This document shows positions 42,456 to 60,176 of a stretch of 64,000 bases of DNA, in pieces (position 1 is the first letter of the stretch; each line of letters begins with the position of its first letter). The stretch comes from Methylobacterium oryzae (GTDB lineage Bacteria; Pseudomonadota; Alphaproteobacteria; Rhizobiales; Beijerinckiaceae), in contig NZ_CP090349.1 of NCBI RefSeq assembly GCF_021398735.1, forward strand, positions 2,613,001 to 2,677,000. Reading direction: 5' to 3'. The translations under genes and the position numbers were made by a program. The notes beneath the pieces were generated by a model. That model worked only from the letters and a program-made list of their open reading frames with translations. It ran no database searches and was not told the origin of the DNA.

Positions 42456-42469
42456 TTGATCCAGCGCAA
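42456..42469. promoter_or_regulatory. FixK/FNR-type box before the P1B ATPase
   Basis: TTGATCCAGCGCAA fits TTG(A/C)-N6-(T/G)CAA. Its centre is about 61 bases before the ATPase ATG. It is the exact reverse complement of the box at 44475. Confidence 0.7.
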
Positions 42470-42523
42470 GGCCTGCAAAGTCAGACCGGCCTCATCTCGT
42501 AGGCTCGAACGGGAGGGGCAGAC

Positions 42524-44449
42524 ATGAAGAAGTCAGCCCTAAGCTCGCCCGGGACGGATCGACCGGTGACCGCCGGATGGATGCCGGGCGTGCACGGGTG
42601 GCTTGCAGCCCTGCCGCTTGCCGGCCTCTGTGTCGGCTTGGCTGTACAGGTCCTCGGTCGGGCAGACATCGCGACGGCGGCTTGGATCCTCGCGACCCTG
42701 GCGGTCCTCGGAGCCCTGGTGTTCCAGGTCGTCACGAGCCTGACGAAGGGAGACGTTGGGCTCGACCTCGTCGCCCTGCTCTCGATGGGCGGCGCGCTCG
42801 CGCTTTCGCAGCCGCTAGCCGGCGCCGTCATCGCTCTGATGTACGCCAGCGGCCAGTCGTTGGAGGCGTACGCGTCCGGCCGCGCCGGCAGGGCGATGAC
42901 CGCGCTGATCGCGCGCCAGCCCCGGACCGCCCTGCGCGAGGACGGCGGGGTGCTGACGGAGGTGCCCCTCGCGGCACTTGTCCCGGGAGACCGTATCCTG
43001 GTGCGCGTCGGCGACGTGCTACCGGTCGACGGCCGGGTCGCCGCGGGCCGCGCCATCCTCGACCGGTCCAGTCTGACCGGCGAGGCGCTGCCCGTCACCG
43101 CCATCGCGAACGAGCTCGTGCTGAGCGGGACCGTGAACGCAGGCACGCCGTTCACCTTGGTGGCTGAGCGGCCCGCGGCCGAGAGCACGTATGCCGGGAT
43201 CGTCCGCCTCGTGGAAGCGGCGCAAGCCCGGAAGGCACCGATGGCACGCCTGGCGGACCGGTACGGGCTTGCCTTCCTCGTCCTCACGCTGCTGCTGGCC
43301 GGGGGCGCCTGGCTCGCCACCGGCGACCCGCTGCGGGCGCTGGCCGTGCTGGTCGTCGCCACCCCATGCCCGCTGATCCTGGCGGTCCCCGTCGCCCTCG
43401 TCTCCGGCCTCTCGCGCGCGGCCGGCATCGGCGTGCTGATCAAGGGTGGCGGCGCCCTTGAGATGTTGGCCAAGGTCCGCGTGCTGGTGGTCGACAAGAC
43501 CGGCACGCTCACCCACGGGAACGCCCGGTTGACCTCCGCGCGCATCCTCGGCGCCCGCGACGAAGGCGAGGTCCTGAGGCTCGCGGCGTCCCTCGAACAG
43601 GCCTCCAGCCACCCGCTGGCCCGGGCCCTGATCGAGGAGGCGGCCCGGCGCGGCCTGCCACTTGCGCAACCCGAGGGCGTCGAGGAAATGCCCGGGGAAG
43701 GCGTGTCCGGCTCGGTGGAGGGGCGCTCGGTCGCCGTCGGGGGGCCGCATCTCATGCAAATGCATGGAATCGGCTTCCCGGCACCGGCCGAGCCAGGAAG
43801 CATCTCAGCGGTCACGTCGACGGTGCTGATTGCCATCGACGGCGCCCCGGCCGCCGTGTTGGCGTTCGCCGATCCGCTGCGGGCGGACGGCGGCAACGCG
43901 CTCCGGGAACTGCGCGCGTGCGGCATCGAGCGTGTGGTGCTCGCGACCGGGGACCGACAGGCCGTCGCGGAGGCGCTCGTCGCCGGGCTGCCGGTCGACG
44001 CGGTCGTCGCCGACCTCGACCCTGTGGCCAAGACCGAGACCGTCGCAGCCGAGCGACGGAACGGACCGGTGATGATGGTCGGCGACGGGGTCAACGACGC
44101 GCCTGCCCTGGCGGCCGCCGATCTCGGCGTGGCCCTCGGAGCCCGGGGCGCGGCGGCGGCTGCCGAGGCGGCCGACATCGTCCTGCTGGTCGACAGCCTG
44201 GCGCCCCTGTCACGGGCCATCCGCATCGCCAACCGGGCCCGCGCCATCGCGCTCCAGAGCGTGTGGGTCGGTCTCGGCCTCTCGTTGGCCGGCATGGTCG
44301 CGGCGGCCCTGGGACACCTATCACCCCTGCAGGGAGCGCTCCTGCAGGAAGCCATCGACGTCGCCGTGATCCTCAACGCCATGCGCGCCCTCGGCGGCAC
44401 CGGTGACGGGCGCGCGCACGACGCATCGACTGCCCCGGACCTTCCGTAA
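42524..44449 (+). CDS. P1B-type heavy-metal ATPase with TPC motif
   Basis: 641 residues. Exports a metal ion at the cost of ATP. Present are the actuator SLTGEALPV, the membrane motif ATPCPLILAVP (about residue 280), phosphorylated DKTGTLTHG (about 324), SSHPLARALI, and the hinge GDGVNDAPAL (about 520). No N-terminal metal-binding domain and no C-terminal haemerythrin domain. TPC rather than CPC or SPC marks the P1B-5-like group, linked to Ni/Fe in rhizobia (Nia), some members FixK-controlled. GGGAGGGG precedes the ATG and a FixK-type box lies upstream. The metal is not proven. Confidence 0.85.
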   Translation: MKKSALSSPGTDRPVTAGWMPGVHGWLAALPLAGLCVGLAVQVLGRADIATAAWILATLAVLGALVFQVVTSLTKGDVGLDLVALLSMGGALALSQPLAGAVIALMYASGQSLEAYASGRAGRAMTALIARQPRTALREDGGVLTEVPLAALVPGDRILVRVGDVLPVDGRVAAGRAILDRSSLTGEALPVTAIANELVLSGTVNAGTPFTLVAERPAAESTYAGIVRLVEAAQARKAPMARLADRYGLAFLVLTLLLAGGAWLATGDPLRALAVLVVATPCPLILAVPVALVSGLSRAAGIGVLIKGGGALEMLAKVRVLVVDKTGTLTHGNARLTSARILGARDEGEVLRLAASLEQASSHPLARALIEEAARRGLPLAQPEGVEEMPGEGVSGSVEGRSVAVGGPHLMQMHGIGFPAPAEPGSISAVTSTVLIAIDGAPAAVLAFADPLRADGGNALRELRACGIERVVLATGDRQAVAEALVAGLPVDAVVADLDPVAKTETVAAERRNGPVMMVGDGVNDAPALAAADLGVALGARGAAAAAEAADIVLLVDSLAPLSRAIRIANRARAIALQSVWVGLGLSLAGMVAAALGHLSPLQGALLQEAIDVAVILNAMRALGGTGDGRAHDASTAPDLP

Positions 44450-44474
44450 GGCCCGCGGAGCGGCACCGGCGGGC

Positions 44475-44488
44475 TTGCGCTGGATCAA
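44475..44488. promoter_or_regulatory. FixK/FNR-type box before the first USP gene
   Basis: TTGCGCTGGATCAA, centred about 70 bases before ATG 44552 and 26 bases past the ATPase stop. The same 14-mer recurs at 58574. Confidence 0.75.
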
Positions 44489-44551
44489 GGTCGGTCGATC
44501 CGCCCCGGGCCAGGCTTCCCGCGCTGGGACCGGCGCACGGTGGAGGTGGCC

Positions 44552-45364
44552 ATGGACTTCGCGAACATCCTCGTTTCCGCCGACCTCGGCGACACGGCAC
44601 CGGACCGGGTGCGCCTGGCCGCAGGATTGGCGCGACGCTTCGAGGCGACCCTCACGGGCGTGGCGGCCCATCAGGTGCCGGTCCCCATCCTGGTGCGAGA
44701 CGTCTACGACGCCACTCGACAGGAAGAGCGCAACAAGGCGCTGGTCCGCGAGATCCTCGAACAGGCCCACGCCATGTTCGAGCGCAGCGCCGGGGAAGAA
44801 ATCCGCACGGAGTGGCAGGCCGCGCTCGTCGGGCCGATCACGCATCTCGTCGAACAGACGCGCGCCGCCGACCTCGTCGTGGTGGGCCGGCGCGGGCGGG
44901 GCGACGACGACCCGGGTCCGCTGGGCGTGCCGCCCGGGCCGGTGCTGATGGAGGCGGGACGGCCCGTCCTCGTCGTGCCGCCTCGGCTCGTGCACTTGCA
45001 TGCGGCCCGCATCGTCGTCGCCTGGAAAGACGGTCCGGAGGCACGGCGGGCGGTTTCGGCGGTGCTTCCCTTCCTCCACGGTGCCGACGAGGTCGCGGTC
45101 GTGACGGTCGGAGGCGACGGGCGGCACGAAGGGACGAAGGCCGTGGCCGGTCATCTCGCGCGGCACGGCGCGCATGTCACGACCCACCTCCTGGAGGCGA
45201 CCGACAGCGACGGCGCCGAGATCCTCGACTTCGCCCTACGGCAGGACGCCGACCTCATCGTCATGGGCGCCTACGGCCATTCGCGCCTGCGGGAATGGAT
45301 CTTCGGGGGCGTCACGCGCGAGGTCCTCGAACGCGCGCAGGTCTGTTGCCTGATGTGCCACTGA
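44552..45364 (+). CDS. Universal stress protein, tandem Usp domains
   Basis: About 270 residues with two Usp folds: the first (FANILVSADLGDTAPDRVRLAAGLARRF...LVVVGRRGRGDDD) and the second (ARIIVVAWKDGPEARRAV type start, ending DLIVMGAYGHSRLREWIFGGVTREVL). The second has the G2xG9G(S/T)-like nucleotide motif (MGAYGHSR..IFGGVT); the first is degenerate. Tandem Usp proteins of this kind are typical of anoxia regulons. ATG 44552 has GGAGG 5 bases upstream. It overlaps the cytochrome gene by one base. Confidence 0.88.
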   Translation: MDFANILVSADLGDTAPDRVRLAAGLARRFEATLTGVAAHQVPVPILVRDVYDATRQEERNKALVREILEQAHAMFERSAGEEIRTEWQAALVGPITHLVEQTRAADLVVVGRRGRGDDDPGPLGVPPGPVLMEAGRPVLVVPPRLVHLHAARIVVAWKDGPEARRAVSAVLPFLHGADEVAVVTVGGDGRHEGTKAVAGHLARHGAHVTTHLLEATDSDGAEILDFALRQDADLIVMGAYGHSRLREWIFGGVTREVLERAQVCCLMCH

Positions 45365-45699
45365 TGCGCTGGTCCCCTGCCATCCTCAGGGTATCGGCGC
45401 CGATCATCCTGGCCCTCGTCGCGCCCCAGGCCTCGGCCTCCCCGGCGGACCGCGGCCTGGCGTTCGCCCGGGCGCATTGCGGACGCTGCCACGCGGTCGG
45501 CCCGAGGCGGACCAGCCCGATGCGCGAGGCGCCGTCATTCCGCACCCTCGCCGAGCACTTCCCGGTCGGCGACCTCGCCGATGTGCTTGTGGAGGGCGTC
45601 GACCGCCGTCATCCCGCCATGCCCGACTTTCGGCTCGCCCCCTCCGATGCCGCCGACCTAACGGCCTATCTGGAAGGTCTGCGCCATAGACGCCCGTAA
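45364..45699 (+). CDS. Small exported c-type cytochrome
   Basis: 111 residues. A signal peptide (MRWSPAILRVSAPIILALVAPQASA) leads to the haem-attachment motif CGRCH in FARAHCGRCHAVG; the axial Met is likely the one in RHPAMPDFRLA. The C-terminal ADLTAYLEGL is the usual class I ending. It would carry electrons in the periplasm. The ATG overlaps the stop of the upstream Usp gene (TGATG), so both are made from the FixK-type promoter at 44475. Confidence 0.87.
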   Translation: MRWSPAILRVSAPIILALVAPQASASPADRGLAFARAHCGRCHAVGPRRTSPMREAPSFRTLAEHFPVGDLADVLVEGVDRRHPAMPDFRLAPSDAADLTAYLEGLRHRRP

Positions 45700-45704
45700 C
45701 AGAA

Positions 45705-45976: not shown

Positions 45977-46837
45977 TCAGCGGGACAGGAACAGGGGTGC
46001 CGGGCTGCCCCTGAGGAATGAGCGCGTCACGCCACCGAAGAAGTATTCCCGGATCGGGGCGTGCCGGTAGGCGCCCATCACGATCATGTCCGCCCGGAAC
46101 AGCCCGGCCTGGGCACGCAACGTGTCGGCGACGCTCTCCCCCCTCGGCAGGTCGTTGACGCTGACATTGACCCCATGCCGGGCGAGATGGGGCGCGAACT
46201 CGGCGCCCGGCACCGCCTCATGGATCTCCGCCTCGGTGCCGACCGAGACGATCTCGACCGCCTCGGCCGAACGCAGGAACGGCATGGCGTCATTGGCCGC
46301 CCGCGCGGCCTGCGCGCTGCCGTCCCAGGCGACGATGATCCGCCGCGCCGCGAAGGCGTCGTGTCCCGGCGGTACGGCGATGACCGGCCGGCCGCTATGG
46401 AACAGCGCCTTCTCGATCATCTCACGGTCGAGGTCGTACGTGCGCGGACCGATGTCCAGGACCGTCAGGTCGTGCAGGCGCGCACGGGCGGCGAGACGGT
46501 TCACGATCTCCGGATACGGCAGGCTCGGCGCCTCGGTCGTGCAGACGACGCCGGCCTGCGCGGCATCCCCGGCCGAGCGCTCGGCGACGGAGCGGGCTAA
46601 CGCGTCGAGCCGGCGGTCCATAACCGAGACGCCTTCGTAGTCGAACTCGCCGAGCCAGGCGTCGTCGCCCGAGAGGCGCCACGAGGCCGACTGGACGGTG
46701 AGGTGGGCGCCTGCGGCCTTGGCCAAGGTCAGGCCGTAGCCGATGGCCGACGAGGCCTCCTCGCGCTCGCCTTCCACGGCGGTCCCGACGAGGACGTCGC
46801 GGATGCCCGCCAGGTGCGAAGGGCTGAATGTGGACAT
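45977..46837 (-). CDS. Universal stress protein, tandem Usp domains (second copy)
   Basis: 286 residues, two Usp folds. The first half begins GIRDVLVGTAVEGEREEASS; the second begins [20 protein letters not shown] and ends DMIVMGAYRHAPIREYFFGGVTRSFL, with the nucleotide-binding glycines partly kept. It is only moderately like the Usp at 44552, so an old duplicate or separate arrival. A FixK-type box lies 64 bases before the start. Confidence 0.88.
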   Translation of the reverse strand: MSTFSPSHLAGIRDVLVGTAVEGEREEASSAIGYGLTLAKAAGAHLTVQSASWRLSGDDAWLGEFDYEGVSVMDRRLDALARSVAERSAGDAAQAGVVCTTEAPSLPYPEIVNRLAARARLHDLTVLDIGPRTYDLDREMIEKALFHSGRPVIAVPPGHDAFAARRIIVAWDGSAQAARAANDAMPFLRSAEAVEIVSVGTEAEIHEAVPGAEFAPHLARHGVNVSVNDLPRGESVADTLRAQAGLFRADMIVMGAYRHAPIREYFFGGVTRSFLRGSPAPLFLSR

Positions 46838-46893: not shown

Positions 46894-46907
46894 TTGATCC
46901 ACCTCAA
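46894..46907. promoter_or_regulatory. FixK/FNR-type box between the Usp and fixL genes
   Basis: TTGATCCACCTCAA, centred 64 bases before the minus-strand Usp start and about 200 bases before fixL. The distance fits control of the Usp gene; an effect on fixL is uncertain. Confidence 0.7.
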
Positions 46908-47099
46908 GCGGCTCGGGCGGCGCGGCATCGGCGACGGCTCGGACCAAAGAACTACTCGGCGTCGGCCGCGAATACGCACCGGCAGCTGTTCCCCGTAGCG
47001 GAATCGCAGTAATGACCGGATGCGCGATGCAGACGCCCTACGGGTGGACACAGGCGAGTTCCAAGACGGCCGCGCGCAGGACCTTTCCGGGTGCGCTCG

Positions 47100-48650
47100 A
47101 TGACGGACCCCGTCGACATGCCCAGCGCCGACCGTTGGCGTGACGCCACGCAGGCGAACGACGAACTTCGTCAGACCCTCGACGAGGTCGGCATCTGCGT
47201 CTGGTCGCTGGACATCCCCACCGGACGCGCCACCGTCTCGCCGACCTGCGCGCGCCTGTTCGGGGTGCCGCCCGAGCGGCTGACCACCTTCGCCGCCTCA
47301 CAGGCCCTCGTGCACCCGGACGACCGGCAGGGCCGGGCGGACGCCATCCAGCGGGCCTTGCGGGATGGCGGAAGCTACGAGGTCGACTACCGCGTCGTGC
47401 GCCCCGACGGCCACGTCTGCTGGCTGCGCTCGCGCGGGAGGGTGAGCCTCGACGCGGACGGTCGGCCGGCGCGCCATCGCGGGGTGGTGCTTAGCATCGA
47501 CGAGCAGAAGCGGGCCGAGGAGGACATCCGGGCGCGAGAGGCGCACCTGCGCTCGATCCTCGACACCGTGCCCGAGGCGATGGTCGTCATCGACGAGGCG
47601 GGCCTGATCCACTCGTTCAGCGCCGCCGCCGAGCGCCTGTTCGGCTACGCGGCCGACGAGGCGGTCGGGCGGAACGTCCGCATCCTGATGCCTGAGCCGA
47701 TGCAGGGCGAGCACGACGGCTACCTCGACCGCTACCGCCGGACCCGGGAACGCCGCATCATCGGCACCAATCGGGTCGTGACCGGCCGGAGGCGGGACGG
47801 CTCAACCTTCCCGATGGAGCTCGCCATCGGCGAGATGCGCTCGGGCGAACAGGTCTACTTCACCGGCTTCATCAACGACCTCACCGAGCATCAGCGCACC
47901 CAGGCCCGCCTCCAGGAACTTCAGTCCGAGCTCGCCCACGTCTCCCGCCTGAGTGCGATGGGCGAGATGGCCTCCGCGCTCGCGCACGAGCTGAACCAGC
48001 CGCTCGGCGCCATCGCGAACTACACCAAGGGCTGCCGCCGCCTGCTGGCACGCCCTGGCCCCGAGGCCATCGCCAAGACGGTGGAGGTTCTCGGCAAGGC
48101 CGCCGAGCAGGCGCTGCGGGCCGGCCAGATCATCCGGCGCCTGCGCGAGTTCGTCGCCCGCGGCGAAACCGAAAGGCGGGTCGAGCCGGTCGCGAGGCTG
48201 ATCGAAGAGGCCAGCGCGCTGGCGCTGGTCGGAGCCCGCGAGCAGGGCATCGTCGCGCTCGTCGTCGTCGACCCGCGGGTCGGCTCCGTCCTCGCCGACC
48301 GGGTGCAGGTGCAGCAGGTCTTGGTGAACCTCCTGCGCAACGCCCGCGAGGCCATGCAGCAGGGCGACAGGCGCGAACTGACCGTCGAGGCGAGGCCAAT
48401 CGGCGGGGAGACGGTCGAGATCGCCGTTTCGGATACCGGGCCCGGCATCGCCGCGGAGGTCGCCGACAGGCTGTTCCAACCGTTCGTCACCACGAAGCGG
48501 AGCGGCATGGGCGTCGGGCTCTCGATCTGCCGCACCATCGTCGAGGCGCATGGCGGCCGCCTCGACGTCGAACGCAACGGCACCGGCGGGGCGACCTTCC
48601 GGCTGAGGCTCCCGGCCGCCCGTGTGGGGGACCTGCCCGATGGCGACTGA
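47100..48650 (+). CDS. fixL: Oxygen-sensing histidine kinase FixL
   Basis: About 516 residues, no membrane span. Two PAS domains (about 25-135 and 145-265) and a HisKA-HATPase unit. The second PAS has the haem-FixL string: [19 protein letters not shown], whose His matches the proximal haem ligand, and [18 protein letters not shown] with the Arg that senses O2. The phosphorylated His is in [19 protein letters not shown] and G boxes are LLRNAREAM and [12 protein letters not shown]. Without O2 such kinases phosphorylate FixJ. ATG 47100 or GTG 47091; neither has a strong ribosome site. Confidence 0.92.
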
Positions 48651-49248
48651 CGTGGTGCACGTCGTGGACGACGACCCGGCCATGCGGGACTCCCTCGGCT
48701 TCCTGCTCGGGACCGAGGGGTTTGAGGTCCGGCTCTACGAGGCCGGGGCGGACCTGCTCGACGGGCTGAAGAAGCCGACCGCGGGATGCGTCCTGACCGA
48801 CATCCGCATGCCCGGCATCGACGGGCTGGAACTGCTGCGCCGCCTGCGGGCTGCGGGGCACGCCTTGCCGGTGGTAATGATGACGGGGCACGGCGACGTG
48901 CCCCTTGCAGTCGAGGCGATGAAGCTCGGCGCCTGCGACTTCATCGAGAAGCCTTTCGACGACGAGGCGCTCATCCAGGCGCTGAGGTCGGCCTTGGAGC
49001 GTGGCGGGATCGCCGGAGCGGTCGACCCGACGCTGCGCGAGTTCGTGCGTCGCGTCGGAACCTTGAGCGAGCGCGAGCGGCAGGTCCTGGACCACCTCGT
49101 CGCCGGCCGCACCAGCAAGGAGATCGGACGGACGCTCGACATCAGCCCGCGCACCGTCGAGATCTACCGGGCCAAGCTCATGGCCAAGACGCGGGCGGAG
49201 AGCCTGCAGGAACTGGTGCGCTGGTCGGTGCTGGGCGGGCTCGCCTGA
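48640..49248 (+). CDS. fixJ: Response regulator FixJ
   Basis: 202 residues: receiver (acid pocket [10 protein letters not shown], phosphorylated Asp in [29 protein letters not shown]) and a LuxR-type helix-turn-helix ([40 protein letters not shown]). Phospho-FixJ activates fixK-type promoters. The ATG overlaps the end of fixL, so the pair is co-translated. It is the partner of FixL. Confidence 0.93.
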
Positions 49249-49255
49249 CACCGGC

Positions 49256-49269
49256 TTGAGGCAGGTCAA
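49256..49269. promoter_or_regulatory. FixK/FNR-type box before the lone receiver gene
   Basis: TTGAGGCAGGTCAA, starting 8 bases after the fixJ stop and centred 76 bases before ATG 49338. Confidence 0.68.
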
Positions 49270-49337: not shown

Positions 49338-49727
49338 ATGCCATCGGCCCCTCAATACCTTATCTACGTCGTGGACGACGACCCGGCCGTCCTGCATTCC
49401 ACGCGCTTCCTGATCGAGTGCGAAGGCCACCGCGTCGAGACCTTCGCCGACGGCCGCGCGCTACTGGCGACCTTTCCCGGCCCACGCCCGGCCTTCGTAC
49501 TACTCGACCAAGTCATGGCGGGGATGGACGGCCTTGAGGTTTTCGGCCGCCTGCGCAGCCTCGACGCGCATGTTCCGGTCGTGCTGATCACCGGCCATCC
49601 CGACCCGGGTATCCGGACGCGGGCCAGGGCCGCGGGCATTCCCTTGATCGATAAGCCACTGATGTTCGACGCGCTGCTTGGCCTGCTCGCCGAAAAAGCC
49701 ACCGGTGTTTCGGTCTCCCGAGCCTGA
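49338..49727 (+). CDS. Single-domain receiver protein (FixJ-receiver-like)
   Basis: 129 residues, receiver only: YVVDDDPAVLHST, phosphorylated Asp in FVLLDQVMAGMDG, LITGHPD and IDKPL. No DNA-binding domain. In other alphaproteobacteria a lone receiver under FixK control (FixT-like in effect, though FixT has another sequence) dampens FixLJ. Here it could draw phosphate from FixL as negative feedback; this is inferred from position and the box upstream. Confidence 0.85.
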   Translation: MPSAPQYLIYVVDDDPAVLHSTRFLIECEGHRVETFADGRALLATFPGPRPAFVLLDQVMAGMDGLEVFGRLRSLDAHVPVVLITGHPDPGIRTRARAAGIPLIDKPLMFDALLGLLAEKATGVSVSRA

Positions 49728-49916: not shown

Positions 49917-50516
49917 TCACTGCGCGGGGGCCGCTGCGCCTTCGGGCGATGGTTTTCTGGGCGTGCTGCCCGTCCGTGCACCCTTCGATGCCCATTCGGG
50001 ATCGGAGTGCGGGCCGCCGGGACCGTCGGCCGGCCCCTGGACCTGGCCGGGGACGACGTCGGCCACACGCTTCCATGATTGCGAGGCGCAGAACACCAGC
50101 ATGCAGCCTTTGACGGTCAGCGTCGACGGCTGGTCGCTCCACACCGTCACGTCGTAGGACTTGCCGTTGTCGGCGTTGTAGATCCTGCCCTCGAAGTGCC
50201 CCTCCGCGTTCGGCTTCAGGCCGAGCAACATCTGGTGGCCGAGTTGGGGTCGGGCCTGGAACGCCGGGTTCGGGTTGTACCGGTCGATTTTCGGCTTGCC
50301 GTCCTTGTCCAGCGGCTCGCGACCCCAGACCACGAAGCCGCAAAGGCGGGTCGCGTCCGACCCGCAGCGTTCGGTCCGGATGCGGGCGCGACCATCCTCC
50401 GTGAGCCAGGTCCCGTACGGTTCGGCGGCGGTGGCGGCGTTCGGCCGTCCGCACGTGACGGTCGCGACGGCGACCACCAGGGCGGCCGTGGCCAAGCGGT
50501 AGACTGGAAAAGTCAT
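49917..50516 (-). CDS. Exported DUF2147-family protein
   Basis: 199 residues. Signal peptide MTFPVYRLATAALVVAVATV with AATAAEP cleavage. The mature part is DUF2147: YGTWLTEDGRARIRTERCG, LCGFVVWGREPLDKDGKP, GRIYNADNGKSYDVTVW and LTVKGCMLVFCASQSWKRV. The C-terminal 45 residues are a Gly/Pro-rich low-complexity tail. DUF2147 proteins are periplasmic beta-barrel-like binders of unknown ligand. It follows the RND gene by 35 bases, so it may belong to that operon. Confidence 0.82.
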   Translation of the reverse strand: MTFPVYRLATAALVVAVATVTCGRPNAATAAEPYGTWLTEDGRARIRTERCGSDATRLCGFVVWGREPLDKDGKPKIDRYNPNPAFQARPQLGHQMLLGLKPNAEGHFEGRIYNADNGKSYDVTVWSDQPSTLTVKGCMLVFCASQSWKRVADVVPGQVQGPADGPGGPHSDPEWASKGARTGSTPRKPSPEGAAAPAQ

Positions 50517-50551
50517 CGGATTCCTTCTGCGGGTTTCACGAAATCGAAGTC

Positions 50552-53500
50552 TCAGGGTGCGGTCACGGCATGCCCGGCCGCGTCGTCGCTCGGTCCGACG
50601 AACCGTCCGAGCACGCGCCCGATAAGGTTGCCGAGGCTGTCCATCAGCAGGAACACGGCCGGCACGAAGACGAGGGAGAGCAAGGTCGAGACGATCAGGC
50701 CGGCGATGACCGCCACCGCCATGGGCGCCCGGAACTCGCCGCCGACCCCGAACGCCATGGCGGACGGGACCATGCCGGCGGCCATCGCGATGGTGGTCAT
50801 CACGATGGGCCGCGCCCGCTTGCGGCCGGCATCGACGATGGCGGTGACCCGGTCGACGCCGCGCCCCATCTCCTCGACTGCGAAGTCGACCAGCATGATC
50901 GCGTTCTTCGTGACCAAGCCCATCAGCATCAGGATGCCGATGACGACCGGCATCGAGATCGGCATCTGGCAAATAAGCAGGCCGAGGATGGCGCCGCCGA
51001 TGGAGAGCGGCAGCGAGAACAAGATGGTCAGCGGCTGCAGGAACGAGCCGAACAGCAGGACGAGCACGGCGTAGACCATCATGATGCCGGCGCCCATCGC
51101 CATCAGGAAGCCCGAGAACACCTCCTGCATGATCTCGGCGTCGCCGGTCTGCTTGATGGTCACCCCCGGCGGCAGGTTCTTCGCCGTCGGGGTCTGCATG
51201 GCCTCGGCGATGAGGGAGCCGAGGGCCTCCGAGCCCTCCATGTTGGCCTCGACGGCGACGCGCACGGCCCGGTCATAGCGGTCGATGGCGCCCGGGCCCT
51301 GGTCGAGCTCGACGTCCGCCACCACCGCCAGCGGCACGGCTGAGCCGTCCTTGGCGGGCACCTTCAGGTTCTCAAGCCGCGAGATCGCGCCGCGGGCGCT
51401 CTCGGGGAGCTGCACGCGGATCGGCACCTGACGGTCGACGGCGTTGAACTTCGCGAGGTTCAGGCCGATGTCGCCGATGGTGCCGACGCGGACGGTCTCC
51501 GCGATGGCGTCGGTCGAGACGCCGAGGTCGGCCGCCACGCCGGGCTTCGGCCGGATGCGGACCTCCGTCCGGTTGAGCGGCGCCGTCGACATCACCGAGA
51601 CGAGGTGCGGGATGGCGGCCATGTCACGCTGCAGGCGCGCGGCGACCTCGGTGACCACGTCGGCGTCGGGGCCGCTCACCACCAGGGCGAGGTCGCGCTG
51701 GCCGCTGTCCCGCAGCGTCCAGGAGCGAATGTCGGGCTCCTCGGCGAGAAGGGCCGCGATCTCGGCCTCGACCGTCCACTGGCGCTTGGTGCGCGAGGCC
51801 TTCGGCGTCAGGTTGACGGTCAGGGTCGCGAGCCGGGTCTCCTTCTTGCCGCCGACCTGCCGGCCGCCGTCGACGAAGACCGAAGTCACCTCGGGCAGCG
51901 CCCGGATGCGGGCGACCACGCGGTCGGACACCGCCACGGTGTCGGCGAGCTTCGCGCCCGGTGCCAGTTCGACCATGAACAGGGTGCGGGCGTTATCCTG
52001 CTTCGGGATGAAGCCCGAGGGTAGCAGGCCGGTCGACACGATGGAGGCGGCGAACAGCGCGAGGCCCGCGAACAGGGTGATCACCCGATGGCGCACCGAC
52101 CAGCCGACGAGGCGCGAGTAGGCGCGCATCACCGGCCCCTCGCGCTCCTCGGCATGGCCGTGGTCGCGCAGGAAGTAGGCGGCGAGCATCGGAGTGATCA
52201 GGCGCGCCACGAGGAGCGACATGAACACCGAGACCGCGATGGTCAGGCCGAACTGGATGAAGTAGCGCCCGGCGATGCCCGGCATGAACGAGACCGGCGC
52301 GAACACCGCGATCAGGGTCGCCGTGATGGCGATGACCGCCAGTCCGATCTCGTCGGCGCCCTCGATGGCCGCCTGGAAGGGCGACTTGCCCAGCCGCATG
52401 TGCCGGACGACGTTCTCGATCTCCACGATGGCGTCGTCGACGAGGATGCCGGTCACCAGCGTGATCGCGAGCAGGCTGATGCCGTTGAGCGTGAAGCCGA
52501 GCGCGTCCATCGCCCAGAATGTCGGGAATACCGAAAGCGGCAGCGCCACCGCCGCGATGAGCGTGGCGCGCCAGTCGCGCAGGAACAGCAGCACGACGAT
52601 GACCGCTAGGAGCGCCCCCTCGATCAGGGTGTGCATGGCGGAATCGTAGGAGCCGATGGTCGAGGAGACCGAGGAGTCGATCAGTTCGAATTGCAGGTCG
52701 GGGTAGCTCGCCTGGAACTCGGCGATCTTCCTTTCGACCCCGGCCGCGACCTCGGCGTCGCTGGCCCCCGACCCGCGCGAGACCGCGAAGGCGACGACAG
52801 GCTCGCCGTTGAAGCGGGCAAAGGTGCGCGGCTCCTCGATGCCGTCCTCGACCCTGGCGAGGTCGTCGAGCCGGACCTTGCGGCCGCCGGGCAGGACAAT
52901 GGATGTGGCCTTGAGGTCGCGCAGGGTGCGGGAAGCGGCGAGTGTGCGGATCGACTGCTCGCGCCCGCCGACCTCGCCGCGCCCGCCGGCCATGTCGGCG
53001 GAGGTGAGGCGCAGTTGCCGGTTCACGTCGGCGGCGGTGATGCCGAGCGACAGCAGCCGGTCGGGCTGGAGCACGACCCGGACCTCCCGCGCGACTCCGC
53101 CGACCCGCTCGACGCCGCCCACGCCCTTCACGCCCTGGAGCGCGCGGGCGATCTTGTCCTCGACCAGCCAGGAGAGTTCGGCAGGCGTCATCGCGGGCGC
53201 CTTCACGCCGTAGACGAGGATCGGCAGGCCGGCGACCTCGACGCGGCTGATCACCGGCTCGTCGATGGTGCGCGGCAGGTTGATGCGGATCTTCGAGACC
53301 GCATCCTTCACGTCGTTGACGGCGCGGTCGGTGTTCACCTCAAGCCGGAACTCGACCGTGGTCACCGAGGAGCCCTCGGTGATGGCCGAGGTGATGTGCT
53401 TGACGCCCCGGACGCCGGCGACCGCGTCCTCGACCCACTTTGTCACCTGGGTCTGGAGCTCGGACGGCGCTGCGCCAGACTGGGTGATGGCCACGGAGAC

Positions 53501-53638
53501 GATGGGCACGTCGACGTTCGGCATCTTCGTCACCGCGAGCCCGCGGAAGCTGACGAGGCCGAGCACGACCAGCACCAGGAACAGGACGAGGGGCGCGATG
53601 GGGTTGCGGATCGCCCATGCGGAGACGTTCAGGCGCAT
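50552..53638 (-). CDS. RND efflux permease (HAE1-type)
   Basis: 1028 residues. Proton-driven pump of the inner membrane exporting hydrophobic compounds through a tripartite channel. N-terminal span WAIRNPIAPLVLFLVLVVLG, proton-relay segment DAIVEIENVVRHM (GILVDDAIVEIEN), and the matching late GLVTKNAIMLVDFAVEE and VTAIVDAGRKRARPIVMTT. Two large periplasmic loops are intact. DD in span 4 and K in span 10 place it with drug pumps rather than heavy-metal CzcA. 50 bases after the adaptor gene. Confidence 0.9.
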   Translation of the reverse strand: MRLNVSAWAIRNPIAPLVLFLVLVVLGLVSFRGLAVTKMPNVDVPIVSVAITQSGAAPSELQTQVTKWVEDAVAGVRGVKHITSAITEGSSVTTVEFRLEVNTDRAVNDVKDAVSKIRINLPRTIDEPVISRVEVAGLPILVYGVKAPAMTPAELSWLVEDKIARALQGVKGVGGVERVGGVAREVRVVLQPDRLLSLGITAADVNRQLRLTSADMAGGRGEVGGREQSIRTLAASRTLRDLKATSIVLPGGRKVRLDDLARVEDGIEEPRTFARFNGEPVVAFAVSRGSGASDAEVAAGVERKIAEFQASYPDLQFELIDSSVSSTIGSYDSAMHTLIEGALLAVIVVLLFLRDWRATLIAAVALPLSVFPTFWAMDALGFTLNGISLLAITLVTGILVDDAIVEIENVVRHMRLGKSPFQAAIEGADEIGLAVIAITATLIAVFAPVSFMPGIAGRYFIQFGLTIAVSVFMSLLVARLITPMLAAYFLRDHGHAEEREGPVMRAYSRLVGWSVRHRVITLFAGLALFAASIVSTGLLPSGFIPKQDNARTLFMVELAPGAKLADTVAVSDRVVARIRALPEVTSVFVDGGRQVGGKKETRLATLTVNLTPKASRTKRQWTVEAEIAALLAEEPDIRSWTLRDSGQRDLALVVSGPDADVVTEVAARLQRDMAAIPHLVSVMSTAPLNRTEVRIRPKPGVAADLGVSTDAIAETVRVGTIGDIGLNLAKFNAVDRQVPIRVQLPESARGAISRLENLKVPAKDGSAVPLAVVADVELDQGPGAIDRYDRAVRVAVEANMEGSEALGSLIAEAMQTPTAKNLPPGVTIKQTGDAEIMQEVFSGFLMAMGAGIMMVYAVLVLLFGSFLQPLTILFSLPLSIGGAILGLLICQMPISMPVVIGILMLMGLVTKNAIMLVDFAVEEMGRGVDRVTAIVDAGRKRARPIVMTTIAMAAGMVPSAMAFGVGGEFRAPMAVAVIAGLIVSTLLSLVFVPAVFLLMDSLGNLIGRVLGRFVGPSDDAAGHAVTAP

Positions 53639-53688
53639 CGGTCTGCCCTGGCTTTCATGACGTCGGGGTGGTGTCGGGGTGCGACGGT

Positions 53689-54918
53689 TTAAGGCACGCC
53701 CGCTTCGGCGGTGTCCCGGGGCGCGGGCACCGCGGCGACCGCGGGCGTGGCGGGCGGGGCTTCGAGCACCGGGCGGACCCGGTCGCCGTCGCGCAGGAAC
53801 GAGCCGGCGCGGGCCACGACCCGCTCGCCTTCGTTGAGGCCCGTGCGGACCTCGACGGTGTCCTCGTCGGCGATGCCGGTGCGAACGGTGCGGTCCTCGA
53901 CACGGTCGCCGGTCACGACGAGGACGCTGCGGCGACCGCCGCCGTAGAGCACCGAAGCCTGGGGGACGCTGACGCCGCGGCTGCGGGCGAGCTCGACGGC
54001 GCCGCGGGCGAAGGTACCGATGCGCAGGCGGGGGTCGGGGTCGAGGCGCACGCGCACCTTGCCCAGGCGCGTCGCCTTGTCGACCTCGGGGTAGACGGCG
54101 CGCACGCTGCCGGCGACGCGGGTGCCCTCACCCATGTCAATCCACGCCGGGGCGCCCTCGCGCAACAGCGGCAGCTTGGTCTCGACGACCTCACCCTCCA
54201 ACTCGATCTCGCCACGCGCGATCAGGCGGAACAGCGGCTCGGAAGACGCCGAGGCGGCGAGGCCGACGCGGGCCGTGCGGCGGCTGACGATGCCGGCCTC
54301 CGGAGCCCGGATCTCGGTGCGGGCGAGCCGTAGGGACAGCTCGTCCCGCACGGCGCGGACCTGGGCGAGGTCGGCCTTGGCCATGGCAAGCCCGTTGCGG
54401 GCGAAGGCGAGCTTGCCCTCCGCCTGGCGCAGGGCGGAGGTGCGGGTCTCCATCACCACCGCCGTGGTGTTGCCGGTCGCCATGAGCGAGCGCGCCCGCT
54501 CAAGCCCCAGCCGAGCCTCGGTCTCGGCAGCCTCGGCCTGCTCGATGTTGCTCTGGGCCTGGGGCACGGCGGCCTCGGCCTTGGCCACCACCGCGTCCTG
54601 CTGCGCGATCTGACGGTCGATGAGGTCGCGCGACAGGCGCGCCAGCACCTGGCCCTTGGCGACCCGCGCGCCCTCTTCGACCAGCACCTCGGTGACCCGG
54701 TAACCGTCGATCTCGGGCGTTACCAAGATCTCGTCGCGGGGCACCAGGGTGCCGGTCACCGCCACAGTCTCCACGGTCTCGCGCCGCGTCGCCTCGACGA
54801 CGCTGACGGCGGGCGCGAGGAGCGGCTTGGTCGTCGCGGGTGCCTCGTCGCGGGCGAGGGAGGCCGAAAGGCCGAGGGTGAGCAGCGTGGTTCCGGCAAG
54901 TAGGACGGCGCGGATCAT
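53689..54918 (-). CDS. RND efflux periplasmic adaptor (membrane fusion protein)
   Basis: 409 residues. Signal peptide MIRAVLLAGTTLLTLGLSASLA, lipoyl half-motifs (VTGTLVPRDEILVTPEIDG, RVAKGQVLARL; LARTEIRAPEAGIVSRR), a coiled-coil hairpin (residues about 95-185; EAAVPQAQSNIEQAEAAETE), then beta-barrel and proximal domains. It joins the RND pump to an outer-membrane channel; no channel gene is present here. The start overlaps the tetR stop (ATGA) and has a GGAGACC upstream. Confidence 0.9.
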   Translation of the reverse strand: MIRAVLLAGTTLLTLGLSASLARDEAPATTKPLLAPAVSVVEATRRETVETVAVTGTLVPRDEILVTPEIDGYRVTEVLVEEGARVAKGQVLARLSRDLIDRQIAQQDAVVAKAEAAVPQAQSNIEQAEAAETEARLGLERARSLMATGNTTAVVMETRTSALRQAEGKLAFARNGLAMAKADLAQVRAVRDELSLRLARTEIRAPEAGIVSRRTARVGLAASASSEPLFRLIARGEIELEGEVVETKLPLLREGAPAWIDMGEGTRVAGSVRAVYPEVDKATRLGKVRVRLDPDPRLRIGTFARGAVELARSRGVSVPQASVLYGGGRRSVLVVTGDRVEDRTVRTGIADEDTVEVRTGLNEGERVVARAGSFLRDGDRVRPVLEAPPATPAVAAVPAPRDTAEAGVP

Positions 54919-55553
54919 CGGCTGGTCTCCGGAAGGGCCTCGGCCGCTCGGAGCAGCGAGCCGCGCAGGCCGGCTTCGATGAGGGCTTGAAGTTGCGCGA
55001 CCGCGGTGGAAGGGTCGTAACCGGGCAACGTCGCCCGGCTGACGATGATGCCCTTCATCAGCGGGTTGAGCGCGTCGAACATGGCCGCGGGGTCGCAATC
55101 GGGCGACGTGGCGAGCGTCGCGAACATCCCGCACAGCCACTCGCGGGCTTCCGCCTCGCCCCGTTCGATCAGCGTTGCGATGGCGGGATTACGGGTCGCT
55201 TCCGACCAGAGGTCCACGCGCAGGACCGCAGCCGAACGGGTGAGATCCGTGAAGTAGCGCGTGAGGATGCCGGTAAGGACGGCGCGCTGGCCGCCTTCCC
55301 GCTCAAGGTCGGCGAGCATGGTCGCGCCGCGCGCCCTGTCGCGCTCGGCCATCGCGAGGACGATGTCCTCCTTGGCGGCGAAGTAGCGATAGAAGTTGCC
55401 TTGGCTCATCGCGGCCTCGCGGGCGAGGTCCGCGATGGTGGTGCGGTGGAAGCCGTTTCGGACGAAGCAGGCCTCGGCGGCATCGAGGATCTCCTCGCGA
55501 CGCGAGACCTGCGCGTCGCGGACCCCGACGACGTTTCCGGCCGCGATGCTCAC
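54915..55553 (-). CDS. TetR/AcrR-family repressor
   Basis: 212 residues from a GTG. The N-terminal helix-turn-helix is plain: EEILDAAEACFVRNGFHRTT, IADLAREAAMSQGNFYRYFAAKEDIVLAM. The ligand domain has the TetR_C form (DLWSEATRNPAIATLIERGE). It is the local regulator of the pump operon; a strong palindrome 300 bases upstream is its likely operator. The GTG overlaps the stop of the small membrane-protein gene. Confidence 0.9.
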   Translation of the reverse strand: MSIAAGNVVGVRDAQVSRREEILDAAEACFVRNGFHRTTIADLAREAAMSQGNFYRYFAAKEDIVLAMAERDRARGATMLADLEREGGQRAVLTGILTRYFTDLTRSAAVLRVDLWSEATRNPAIATLIERGEAEAREWLCGMFATLATSPDCDPAAMFDALNPLMKGIIVSRATLPGYDPSTAVAQLQALIEAGLRGSLLRAAEALPETSR

Positions 55554-55813
55554 GATGCTTGCTCCGCCGTATGGGGGACGACCCGGCCGGCGTCCTTAGC
55601 CCGGGTTGCCGTGACGCAAGCGTGCGCGGACGGGGCGAGGCCGGCGCACGTGCGGGCCTGCCAGCCACCGGGGCCGTTTCCGGTCCAGGAAATCAGCGCC
55701 GCCCAGCCCAGGATCACCAAGAGGGCGGCGAGCAGGTTGGCTGGGCGCAGGAGTGAAATGGCTTCGGCGGCCACACCGGGCCGGTGCGTCGATGCCTGGA
55801 GTCCTGGTGCCAT
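55550..55813 (-). CDS. Small membrane protein heading the efflux operon
   Basis: 87 residues, with one hydrophobic helix (LLAALLVILGWAALISW) and a Cys-containing outer part (WQARTCAGLAPSAHAC). Its stop overlaps the tetR GTG start (GTGA), which argues that it is translated. ATG 55813 is preferred to an ATG at 55861, which lies inside the operator palindrome. No family recognised. Confidence 0.5.
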   Translation of the reverse strand: MAPGLQASTHRPGVAAEAISLLRPANLLAALLVILGWAALISWTGNGPGGWQARTCAGLAPSAHACVTATRAKDAGRVVPHTAEQAS

Positions 55814-56346: not shown

Positions 56347-56360
56347 TTGCGTCAGATCAA
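56347..56360. promoter_or_regulatory. FixK/FNR-type box, orphan
   Basis: TTGCGTCAGATCAA fits TTG(A/C)-N6-(T/G)CAA and is followed by GG, as at 44475, 56598 and 58574. The nearest start codon to the right is 370 bases away. Confidence 0.55.
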
Positions 56361-56597: not shown

Positions 56598-56611
56598 TTG
56601 AGCCACATCAA
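56598..56611. promoter_or_regulatory. FixK/FNR-type box before the SPW-repeat gene
   Basis: TTGAGCCACATCAA, followed by GG, centred about 122 bases before ATG 56727. Confidence 0.65.
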
Positions 56612-56726: not shown

Positions 56727-57095
56727 ATGCGGACCATCGAGAACCGGATGGAGGACATGATCCCGAACGCGCTGAACGCGCTGCTGGGCGTCGCGCTCCT
56801 CATGGCGCCCTGGTACCTGGGACTCGGCAGCGAGACCGCAGCGGCGCGCAATGCCTTCGTCTGCGGCGGCGCCATCACCGTCATCGCGGCGCTCGCCCTC
56901 GCCAAGTCCTATGACTGGGAGGAATACATCAACCTCGCCGCCGGCCTCTGGGTGTCCATCGCCCCGTGGGCGCTCGGCTTCGCGGACCTGCGGTACCAAG
57001 TGTGGCTGCACGTGGGCATCGGGCTCGCGGTAGCCGTCCTAGCGGCGTTCGAGCTCTGGCGGCTCTTTGTGTCGCCCCAGGCGCGTTCGGTCTGA
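56727..57095 (+). CDS. SPW-repeat membrane protein
   Basis: 122 residues, four hydrophobic segments in two repeats. Each repeat has the SPW-type turn: ALLMAPWYLGLGSE and VSIAPWALGFADL. The first 12 residues are cytoplasmic and polar. SPW proteins are small inner-membrane proteins of unknown role, common beside stress genes. The ATG has CAGGAGGCGACG upstream. A FixK-type box lies 122 bases before. Confidence 0.85.
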   Translation: MRTIENRMEDMIPNALNALLGVALLMAPWYLGLGSETAAARNAFVCGGAITVIAALALAKSYDWEEYINLAAGLWVSIAPWALGFADLRYQVWLHVGIGLAVAVLAAFELWRLFVSPQARSV

Positions 57096-57111
57096 GGCAT
57101 CTTTCATCGCC

Positions 57112-57152
57112 GGAGGGGCCGCGGAAGCCCATCGCTTGGCCGCGGCCCCTCC
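57112..57152 (+). terminator. GC-rich hairpin after the SPW gene
   Basis: Perfect 13-bp stem GGAGGGGCCGCGG / CCGCGGCCCCTCC with a 15-base loop, 17 bases after the stop. No T run follows; it may stabilise the 3' end or act as a partial terminator before the next small gene. Confidence 0.55.
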
Positions 57153-57189
57153 CAGGACCATCGGACCAACCGCGTTCCGGAGCGGCGCG

Positions 57190-57414: not shown

Positions 57415-57427
57415 TCGCCGAGCACGC

Positions 57428-57446
57428 ATACGTAATTGCCCTTACG
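57428..57446. promoter_or_regulatory. FixJ-box-like inverted repeat before fixK
   Basis: ATACGTAATTGCCCTTACG contains CGTAA (57431-57435) and TTACG (57442-57446) as inverted arms. GTAA..CCCTTA is reminiscent of known FixJ sites at fixK promoters. It is centred about 97 bases before the fixK ATG. The match to the FixJ consensus is from memory and needs a matrix scan. Confidence 0.5.
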
Positions 57447-57535
57447 CGGACCTGCTTAAGCGACCGACCGGAATTTTTCAGGACGCCCGGTCCCGGCAAT
57501 CTCCCGCCATCCGATTTCGGACGAGGAGAGATGCG

Positions 57536-58222: not shown

Positions 58223-58254
58223 AGACAACCCAAGCCGGTATCGGGGAGGAGACC

Positions 58255-58602
58255 ATGGCCACGACATTCGACGAGCGCGAGCGGGCCTACGAGCAACGTT
58301 TCGTCCTGGAGGAGGAGGCGCGCTTCCACGCCCGCAACAGGCGCAACCGGCTCCTGGCCACCTGGGCCTGCGAACGGATGGCCCTGAGCGGGCCGGCGGC
58401 CGAAGCGTACGTCACCGCCTTTACGGATTGTGCCGTCGTGGCCGACGACGAGACGATGGTCGCGCGGCTCCAATCGGACCTGGCGGCCGCGGGCATCGGG
58501 GCGACGCTTCCGCACCTGCGGAAGGAGACGGAGCGCTGCGCCGCACTGGCGAGGGCCGAGCGCCGCGTGGGTGTTGCGCTGGATCAAGGCTCCTCCGTCT
58601 AG
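58255..58602 (+). CDS. DUF1476 protein, F1-ATPase zeta-inhibitor-like
   Basis: 115 residues. It matches the alphaproteobacterial zeta subunit family: N-terminal MATTFDERERAYEQRFVLEEEARFHARNRRN, RLLATWACERMALSG, and the ending LAAAGI. Zeta binds inside the F1 catalytic sector through its N-terminal helix and blocks ATP hydrolysis. This copy has a longer C-terminus (AERRVGVALDQGSSV) and extra Cys, and lies 32 bases after fixK rather than with housekeeping genes. It is probably a stress-induced paralogue. GGGGAGGAGACC precedes the ATG. Confidence 0.75.
   Translation: MATTFDERERAYEQRFVLEEEARFHARNRRNRLLATWACERMALSGPAAEAYVTAFTDCAVVADDETMVARLQSDLAAAGIGATLPHLRKETERCAALARAERRVGVALDQGSSV
58574..58587. 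promoter_or_regulatory. FixK/FNR-type box before the BON-domain gene
   Basis: TTGCGCTGGATCAA, the same 14-mer as at 44475, lies in the last codons of the DUF1476 gene and is centred 98 bases before ATG 58679. Confidence 0.65.
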
Positions 58603-58678
58603 GCCGGGCAGGATCACCCGGCCGCTGCCCACCACGCCATCCGGCATGAACGGGAGAGAGGCCATGAGGAGAAGCGCC

Positions 58679-59329
58679 ATGACCGACAAGGACCTGCGCC
58701 GCGACGTTCTCGACGAGCTCGACTTCGACCCCAGCCTCGACGCGGGCGACATCGGCGTCGCCGTCTCGGACGGCGTCGTGACGCTCACCGGCCACGTCGG
58801 CAGCTACGCCGAGAAGGTCGAGGCCGAGCGCGCCGTCCGGCGCGTCCGGGGCGTGCGCGCCATCGCCCAGGAGATCCAGGTCCGATACGCGGACGCGAAG
58901 AAGGTCGCCGACGACCAGATCGCCGCGCGGGCGCTGGCCATCATCGACTGGTCCGTCCACCTGCCGAAGCGGGCCATCCAGGTGACGGTCGCCGGTGGCT
59001 GGGTCACCCTCACCGGCGCGGTTCACTGGCAGTACCAGTCGGCGGGCGCCGAGGCGGCGGTCCGCAAGCTCACCGGTGTGCACGGGGTGACGAACCACAT
59101 CGAGGTCAGGCCCGAGGCCCGCCCGGATGCGGTCAAGGACAAGATCCTGGAGGCGTTCCGGCGCAGCGTCATGTTCGAGGCGGACGGGATCAAGGTCACC
59201 GTCACGGGCGACAAGGTCACGCTGGAGGGGGCGGTGTCGGCCTGGACGGAGCGCGACGCCGCCGAGCGCGCGGCCTGGTCGGTGCCGGGCGTCCGCGCCG
59301 TCGAGGACCGCATCGTCGCCCTGAGTTGA
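58679..59329 (+). CDS. Triple BON-domain protein
   Basis: 216 residues with three BON repeats: DIGVAVSDGVVTLTGHVGSYAEK, AIQVTVAGGWVTLTGAVHWQYQ and GIKVTVTGDKVTLEGAVSAWTER, each ending in V.GV..V or similar. No signal peptide, so unlike OsmY it is probably cytoplasmic. BON domains bind membranes or small ligands. ATG 58679 (AGGAGAAG upstream) or ATG 58664 (GGGAGAGAG upstream) are both plausible. First gene of a three-gene unit with a FixK-type box. Confidence 0.85.
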   Translation: MTDKDLRRDVLDELDFDPSLDAGDIGVAVSDGVVTLTGHVGSYAEKVEAERAVRRVRGVRAIAQEIQVRYADAKKVADDQIAARALAIIDWSVHLPKRAIQVTVAGGWVTLTGAVHWQYQSAGAEAAVRKLTGVHGVTNHIEVRPEARPDAVKDKILEAFRRSVMFEADGIKVTVTGDKVTLEGAVSAWTERDAAERAAWSVPGVRAVEDRIVALS

Positions 59330-59340
59330 GGAGGACCACC

Positions 59341-59811
59341 ATGTCCGTAGAGATGCACGGGTCCGATGCAGTCGCACCGCCGCTCGGGCCGCGGCCCGAG
59401 ACCGGGGCTGCCCCGGCCGCGATGTTCCGCGTGACCCTGACGCTGGCGCGCTGCCCGGAGCATCCGGACGGCAGCGTAGGGCGGGGATACCAGATCGTTG
59501 CTCCGCTCGGACCGGACGGGCGCCTCGACGCGGCGCTCTGGCGCGAGATCCGGGATCACTGCCGGGTGCGACGGTTCTGGGTCGGCGAGCGCGACCGCCA
59601 TGGCCGGCTCGTCCACCGCGCCGGCGGAGAGGGCGGGGCGACCTGGCTGATCGACTATGCCGACTGGACGAACGAGGACGACGAGCCCGGTTACCACCTC
59701 GGCACACACGCCTTCGTCGAGGGCGAGTACGTCTCGATCCGCGATGCCGGCGACGAGACCTACCGCACCTTCAGGGTCTCCCACGTCAGCCGCGTCGAGG
59801 CGGGGGCTTAG
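59341..59811 (+). CDS. Hypothetical protein in the BON operon
   Basis: 156 residues. About 30 disordered N-terminal residues precede a compact domain with RVTLTLARCPEHPDGSVGRGY, WLIDYADWTNEDDEPGYHLGTHAFVEGEYVSI and TFRVSHV. The last part looks like an all-beta domain. No membrane segment or leader. GAGGAGG precedes the ATG, 11 bases after the BON stop. No family recognised by me; similar proteins occur in stress clusters of this order. Confidence 0.7.
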   Translation: MSVEMHGSDAVAPPLGPRPETGAAPAAMFRVTLTLARCPEHPDGSVGRGYQIVAPLGPDGRLDAALWREIRDHCRVRRFWVGERDRHGRLVHRAGGEGGATWLIDYADWTNEDDEPGYHLGTHAFVEGEYVSIRDAGDETYRTFRVSHVSRVEAGA

Positions 59812-59814
59812 GCC

Positions 59815-60066
59815 ATGAGGCAGGCATCGACGACCCTTCCGTCCCACCCTCCGCGCTCGGATTTCGAGCTCGCGGAGAATGCCCTGCTGACGCTGTGGCG
59901 CACCTTCTGGCTCGACCTCCCGCTCGCCTGGGCGGGCGAGGTCGACCGGCTCCTGTATCGATGGGCGCAGCCGGTCGATATGGGTGACTGCCTCTTCGGC
60001 CTCGACGTCGGTCACGGGGACGGCGAGCGCGAACGGGCGCCGGGTCGGAGCCAGGACACGGTTTAG
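59815..60066 (+). CDS. Small hypothetical protein
   Basis: 83 residues, 3 bases after the preceding stop, so very likely co-translated. The core FELAENALLTLWRTFWLDLPLAWAGEVDRLLYRW is amphipathic helical with many aromatic residues, as in small membrane-associated proteins; the C-terminus is polar. No family recognised. Confidence 0.6.
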   Translation: MRQASTTLPSHPPRSDFELAENALLTLWRTFWLDLPLAWAGEVDRLLYRWAQPVDMGDCLFGLDVGHGDGERERAPGRSQDTV

Positions 60067-60162
60067 GCGCCCTTCCGCCGCCGACCGTCAGGCCGGCCTG
60101 CGGGGAATGCCGCCGAACCGGGTTCGGGCCAGGCAGGGCGGACGGTGGTCCGGACCGATTTT

Positions 60163-60176
60163 TTGATTCACCGCAA
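60163..60176. promoter_or_regulatory. FixK/FNR-type box before the second Crp/Fnr gene
   Basis: TTGATTCACCGCAA, centred 66 bases before ATG 60236, fits TTG(A/C)-N6-(T/G)CAA. It lies in an A/T-richer patch. Confidence 0.68.

Follow-up and report, generated by a model that had tools for sequence, protein, structure and literature searches.

The locus

We describe a block of genes in Methylobacterium oryzae (assembly GCF_021398735.1) that encodes relatives of FixL, FixJ, and FixK and carries a series of fourteen-base FixK/FNR-type boxes. The block was analyzed in a window, that is, the whole stretch of 64,000 nucleotides, which corresponds to C1:2613001-2677000 (C1 being contig NZ_CP090349.1) in a genome of 6.65 Mb in five contigs. 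These boxes are very probably FixK operators of a self-contained low-oxygen regulon inside a tRNA-Gln island. The features of the block within the window are listed below, with each box center given as its distance in bases before the start codon.

42456..42469 (+), predicted FixK box, P-type ATPase promoter, center 61.5 before start
42524..44449 (+), P-type ATPase (PF00122, PF00702)
44475..44488 (+), predicted FixK box, promoter of a universal stress protein (Usp), center 71.5 before start
44553..45364 (+), Usp (PF00582 on 44540-45364; start chosen by us, the open reading frame opening at 44540)
45364..45699 (+), small cytochrome c (PF00034, above its cut-off)
45977..46837 (-), second Usp (PF00582)
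46894..46907 (-), predicted FixK box between Usp (-) and fixL (+), center 63.5 before the second Usp start
47091..48650 (+), FixL with PAS, heme-type PAS, HisKA, and HATPase domains (domain search)
48622..49248 (+), FixJ response regulator (PF00072, PF00196)
49256..49269 (+), predicted FixK box, lone receiver promoter, center 75.5 before start
49338..49727 (+), lone receiver-domain protein (PF00072)
56347..56360 (+), candidate FixK box with directional G and -10-like GAACCT, center 373.5 before SPW
56598..56611 (+), predicted FixK box, SPW promoter, center 122.5 before start
56727..57095 (+), SPW repeat protein (PF03779)
57429..57446 (+), predicted FixJ site before fixK, TACGTAATTGCCCTTACG, compared with the Sinorhizobium meliloti site excerpted from PMC4999443
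57536..58222 (+), FixK, a FixK2-type Crp/Fnr regulator (PF13545, PF00027; FixK2, PDB 4i2o)
58255..58602 (+), ATPase inhibitor subunit zeta (PF07345), 32 bases after fixK
58574..58587 (+), predicted FixK box, BON promoter, inside the end of the zeta gene, center 83.5 before start
58664..59329 (+), triple BON-domain protein (PF04972, three stretches)
60163..60176 (+), predicted FixK box, second Crp/Fnr promoter, center 66.5 before start
60236..61117 (+), second Crp/Fnr protein, with a different recognition helix, TSVHANR (domain search, alignment)
61158..62273 (-), acetate kinase (PF00871)
62283..64000 (-), phosphoketolase (PF09364, PF03894, PF09363), running past the window end, with a box at C1:2677888 just outside

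FixK-type boxes and their clustering

The loose pattern TTG(A/C)-N6-(T/G)CAA is the FixK2 box published in PMC9104804. It matches nine times in the window against 0.90 expected from dinucleotide shuffles; an earlier note on this DNA had roughly estimated about one chance match. None of 100 shuffles reached nine, and all nine matches lie between 42.4 and 60.2 kb. Eight of them (42456, 44475, 46894, 49256, 56347, 56598, 58574, and 60163) had been proposed in that note, and each was recovered at its position. The two sites it had called identical (44475 and 58574) are so, and 42456 is their exact reverse complement, such that three sites share one sequence. The GG that it had seen after four boxes in fact follows six of the eight.

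Seven further boxes lie just past the window end (C1:2677888-2685983) and extend the cluster by 9.0 kb. The loose pattern occurs 112 times in the whole genome, fewer than its reversed-pattern control (160). Sixteen of the 112 fall within the 30.5 kb of C1:2655456-2685983, where about 0.44 would be expected from the remaining genome (P ~7e-20). A similar density elsewhere on the chromosome, which the earlier note had named as grounds for abandoning its proposal, was thus not found, in a scan that used patterns in place of a matrix. A stricter pattern, derived from the window's own sites, so that the clustering of its matches is not independent, gives 20 boxes genome-wide (controls 3 and 2), with 15 in the block, 2 before cydAB, 2 on contig C2, and 1 on C5.

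Polarity and promoter geometry

When the island boxes are read toward the gene, a G occupies the second position past the box in 15/15 (P 2e-7), a count that assumes that 56347 points toward SPW. With -41.5 assigned to the box center, 9 of the 15 have A at -11 (P 7e-5). The same positions were counted over 100 boxes pooled from 15 sequence sets, relatives among them; the sets are not independent. The G is present in 98, A(-11) in 59, and T(-7) in 42. In class II activation by Crp/Fnr proteins the box is centered at -41.5. The layout here looks like that arrangement, as the -10 signal implies a distance of 41.5 bases from box center to transcription start. By the same signals, 56347 resembles a rightward promoter. 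Because the G marks box polarity, it also explains the GG of the earlier note. We rejected the GG as part of a palindromic operator, given that the gene-side G is present in 98/100 boxes and the other side is weak. A consensus ending in CAANG has already been published (PMC4999443, in excerpt). A second box is also present 223 and 229 bases before SPW in two of the named relatives (L042 and L044).

The match at 55606 was considered as a ninth operator and is probably due to chance. It is without the directional G on both strands, and its stretch, which lies within an RND-efflux block, shows no alignment with M. gregans and five other named loci. In its favor, its center is 59.5 bases before a TetR start codon, and a boxed RND adaptor gene is FixK2-dependent in Bradyrhizobium diazoefficiens (PMC9104804, in excerpt). 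The boxes as a set are not chance; 55606 alone is still compatible with it.

A proposed FixL-FixJ-FixK cascade

The second PAS domain of FixL aligns with solved FixL heme-PAS domains (8js5, E 5.2e-57) and keeps the aligned His and Arg, which we take to be those that serve the heme. The best solved relative of FixK is FixK2 (4i2o, E 3.1e-68; next best 5.3e-22). The E..SR recognition helix claimed in the earlier note for a FixK encoded among the boxes is borne out. It reads LGLTIETVSR against LGLTLETVSR in 4i2o, with Leu195 of FixK2 replaced by Ile. Close named relatives of this FixK come from Methylobacterium, Methylorubrum, and one Enterovirga. Where B. diazoefficiens FixK2 has Cys183, described as redox-sensitive in the excerpt of PMC9104804, the aligned residue is Thr; redox control is therefore not expected at that residue, and Cys183 is not taken as defining all FixK proteins.

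No FixK box lies within 260 bases upstream of fixK. The predicted FixJ site found there matches the S. meliloti site TAAGTAATTTCCCTTA at 14/16 bases (PMC4999443, in excerpt). FixJ also binds the Rhodopseudomonas palustris fixK promoter, which carries GTACGTAG (PMC13327599, in excerpt). Among the fixK upstreams, 31 were usable and distinct, and 24 of these carry a FixJ-like site that keeps at least 15/18 consensus bases and lies 93-156 bases ahead of the start; shuffles reach at most 13. The consensus was composed after inspecting the window and a few relatives. Of 33 rows, 31 were used, as L031 and L048 start at a contig end.

We infer a physiological benefit. Oxygen control and binding by FixK would proceed as follows. 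Loss of oxygen from the FixL heme would lead FixL to phosphorylate FixJ, and phosphorylated FixJ would bind the site before fixK. A FixK dimer would then bind boxes centered 41.5 bases before the transcription start and recruit RNA polymerase. Predicted targets are the P-type ATPase, the Usps, receivers, SPW, the BON proteins, phosphoketolase-acetate kinase, an ion channel, and the second Crp/Fnr protein. Domain content and sites together support assigning the block to a known kind of regulon, FixLJ-FixK2.

Conservation among relatives

Box conservation was assessed in the 300 bases upstream of orthologs in 15 named loci, of which L041 and L047 represent one strain. Orthologs below per-gene identity limits (55-75%) were omitted, and one fixK row extended past a contig end. 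The box is kept before 50/52 orthologs of nine box-bearing genes, mostly at a similar distance, and before phosphoketolase in 9/9 relatives. Among genes without a box of their own in the window, relatives have one before acetate kinase in 0/4, the downstream Usp in 0/5, fixK in 2/14, and zeta in 3/5. For fixL (5/12) and the second BON gene (6/7), the box is shared with a divergent neighbor.

Stretches of 60 kb from the genomes of four other species keep most of the block in largely the same order, with 15 (G026), 14 (G010), 17 (G002), and 12 (G019) strict boxes. G026 and G002 have about 10 kb of additional, box-bearing DNA between fixK and zeta, and the G019 stretch has no match to zeta, the first BON gene, the second Crp/Fnr gene, or acetate kinase.

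A FixK with at least 64% identity is present in 33 of 99 genomes of the genus. The median number of strict boxes is 21 in those 33, 11 in 11 genomes with a 46-56% match, and 4 in the other 55 (32 versus 55 genomes, own genome excluded, Mann-Whitney p 4.7e-14). Inheritance of a single block would give the same correlation between boxes and FixK, and the correlation alone is therefore no proof of binding.

The island at tRNA-Gln

The regulon block lies inside what its ends and flanks identify as a genomic island of 40.5 kb inserted at tRNA-Gln. The left end carries these features:

38444..38518 (+), tRNA-Gln, anticodon TTG (ARAGORN, L001:15445-15519), its 3' end forming the left attachment (att) site
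38502..38519 (+), attL core of 18 bp, the last 17 tRNA bases plus one, with an exact copy at C1:2691989-2692006
38635..40392 (+), tyrosine-recombinase integrase of 585 amino acids, an open frame without stops (PF00589, PF20172)
40764..41992 (-), IS3-type transposase genes in two open reading frames (ORFs), with rve and HTH_21 from a scan of the first, 40764-41669; the second ORF is 41666-41992

In tRNA-borne islands the 3' end of the tRNA typically serves as the att core, with a tyrosine integrase adjoining and a direct repeat at the far end. Here the tRNA ends at 38518 and the integrase frame starts at 38635. The core, TCCTGGCGCCCCAGCCAA, has one other copy within the 84 kb examined, 40487 bp away at C1:2691989. 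Between the copies lie the integrase, the IS3 element, the regulon block of about 31.6 kb, and an ArdC-type gene. The end parts of the island have a G+C content of 0.669 and 0.651, compared with 0.714 and 0.741 for the flanks. When the two ends of the 31.6-kb block were searched for repeats, only an 11-bp match appeared, taken as chance; the att repeat is at the tRNA instead. No conjugation genes were identified, with only three ORFs of the island's right end scanned. The island may be mobile at present.

The tRNA and left flank are present in relatives. G087, which is 98% identical at the tRNA region and whose best FixK match is 49%, has an empty site: the right flank directly follows the tRNA, 1516 bases from base 1 at 88%. 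The site of G002 is nearly empty, with the right flank in three pieces (82% over 141 bases, 90% over 887, and 90% over 247), and this genome has its own FixK block 1.8 Mb away on the same contig. In the remaining 17 of 19 loci tested, at most 57 bases of right flank are shared, or none.

Weighing the explanations

Several observations weigh against reading the boxes as operators of the island FixK. The -10 match is partial, with T at -7 in 7/15 island boxes (P 0.003), and the box is lost before two genes in one relative each (in both cases a Usp gene, in L047 and in L045). The correlation of box count with FixK may reflect only boxes travelling with the block. Away from the island, one cydAB copy far off on C1 (C1:4696909, the copy examined; the genome has three further cydA matches) carries two boxes. 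We inspected 30 cydA upstreams from the 88 genomes with a match, and strong boxes occur in 11; three of these genomes are without a close FixK (G087, G045, and G082), and boxes are missing in nine genomes with FixK, ten counting G026 with its one weak match. Since box presence does not track FixK presence, we do not accept cydAB as proof of a distant FixK-dependent target, and another regulator probably also uses these sites. A second FixK, 73% identical to the island protein, is encoded on C2 and could read the same boxes. Its surroundings (L007:5029-9066, C2:253028-257065) include genes for SPW, a chemotaxis receptor, and a receiver, as well as two strict boxes.

The cydAB boxes and the second FixK also favor the view that the main reader of the boxes is a different Crp/Fnr protein (an FNR that senses oxygen, a DNR, or the C2 FixK), with the island fixK secondary, as does the close similarity of FnrN and FixK sites (PMC4999443, in excerpt). 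We consider this improbable: of 13 Crp/Fnr matches in the genome, only the two FixK proteins have the ETVSR helix, and the boxes surround fixK and accompany FixK across the genus. Chance or base composition, for which the genome-wide deficit of the loose pattern relative to its control might speak, is refuted for the set by clustering, conservation, polarity, and the -10 signal, and has next to no probability left. The boxes, their conservation, polarity, and geometry, the FixJ-like site, the att repeats, and the empty site are all evident from the DNA itself. The earlier note had proposed a FixK regulon, and that proposal holds up on clustering, conservation, geometry, the recognition helix, and identical 14-mers (below). 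Its set was incomplete, as the regulon extends past the window, fixK has a FixJ-like site of its own, and the whole is located on an inserted genomic island.

Whether the block itself is a mobile unit is a separate matter. It might be an old chromosomal cluster that the tRNA island merely captured in this lineage, which we regard as the less plausible account but one deserving real attention. Integrase and ArdC matches are confined to the stretch of this genome, with none in the stretches of the four other genomes (G019 included, for the integrase) or in the 15 named loci. A tRNA scan covering eight of the 12 stretches from those four genomes, the outer ones, gave no hit, and a close FixK is present in as many as a third of the genomes (33/99). 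Against this account, homology stops at the block ends: the block is covered at 53-70% by G002, G010, G019, and G026, and its 10-kb flanks at 0%, except that an IS3 copy in G019 accounts for 13% of the left flank, compared with 41-98% for rpoB regions. Two short G019 matches lie further out on the right. G087 moreover has an empty att site, and that of G002, with its own block elsewhere on the contig, is close to empty.

The IS3 transposase of G019, 92% identical to window 40764-41669, is situated just left of its block (G019:C1 about 4913470-4914372).

Comparison with known systems

Like the FixLJ-FixK2 regulon of B. diazoefficiens, the island has relatives of FixL, FixJ, and FixK, the same box, phosphoketolase-acetate kinase, and Usp genes. 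Two island 14-mers, TTGATCCAGCGCAA and TTGACCTGCCTCAA, are identical to listed boxes of FixK2-dependent genes in that species, in which phosphoketolase-acetate kinase (bll2518-bll2517) and a Usp are FixK2-dependent (PMC9104804). The two differ in that our genome has no match to ccoN (cbb3 oxidase, fixNOQP), although three other heme-copper oxidase genes are present, and in one cydAB copy with two boxes, the Thr for Cys183, the absence of a FixK box in the 260 bases before fixK, and the concentration of most strict boxes in one block.

The lxa locus of Burkholderia cenocepacia is a contiguous 50-gene cluster with six Usps, a BON protein, and cytochrome c, for which a FixK homolog is the proposed regulator (PMC6127331). 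It shares with the island the single physical cluster, these gene types, and the FixK-type regulator. However, it belongs to another class of bacteria, its proposed regulator (BCAM0049) and FixLJ (BCAL2210/2211) have tags outside the locus (BCAM0275-BCAM0323), whereas the island holds all three, and att sites are not mentioned in the available portion of PMC6127331. A FixK regulon that lists FixJ, FixL, phosphoketolase, and cytochrome c was predicted for an alphaproteobacterial group including Bradyrhizobium and Methylobacterium (Dufour 2010, PMC2908626); the portion of that article consulted describes no island or clustering.

The att core, integrase position, far repeat, and empty site in a relative are as in other tRNA-borne islands with a tyrosine integrase. 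The cargo is unlike the usual, consisting of an oxygen sensor, its regulators, and their targets. Among the papers listed by literature searches, in which subscription journals were thinly covered, none described a FixK regulon as a tRNA-borne island, nor such an island in Methylobacterium. The regulator, the box, and the kind of gene set are already known; the packaging as one island is the new part.

Neighboring genes

The label P1B for the ATPase at 42524..44449 is that of the earlier note; Pfam gives E1-E2_ATPase and Hydrolase only. Between the lone receiver and SPW (window 49917-55553) lie genes for DUF2147, an AcrB-type RND pump, HlyD, and TetR. None of the 15 named loci has a match to DUF2147, AcrB, or HlyD; for TetR there is one weak match (42%). 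In M. gregans, about 1.2 kb is without alignment in the region of this RND block. Beyond the window end, Pfam identifies further genes for BON, Usp, and cytochrome c proteins, the ion channel, and an NRAMP protein, the last of which is excluded from the comparison with relatives. In this genome the block's last Usp is broken into two reading frames (L003:18047-18865, C1:2686046-2686864), and its first part has matches in two relatives at 77% and 81%.

Implications

Because the sensor, the switch, and most predicted targets are together on the island, a whole low-oxygen response may move between species as a package. We judge the chances to be evenly balanced that a complete response (sensor, two-step regulators, about 14 boxed promoters, and effectors) spreads among Methylobacterium as one mobile unit with its own operators, plugging into boxes already at resident cytochrome bd genes. 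The usual picture of a regulon is one of scattered sites evolving singly after the arrival of a regulator; here, regulator and operators appear to arrive together. Across the 99 sampled genomes, strict boxes are common with a close FixK and rare without. A near relative with an empty site provides a natural before-and-after comparison for the gain of a hypoxia response.

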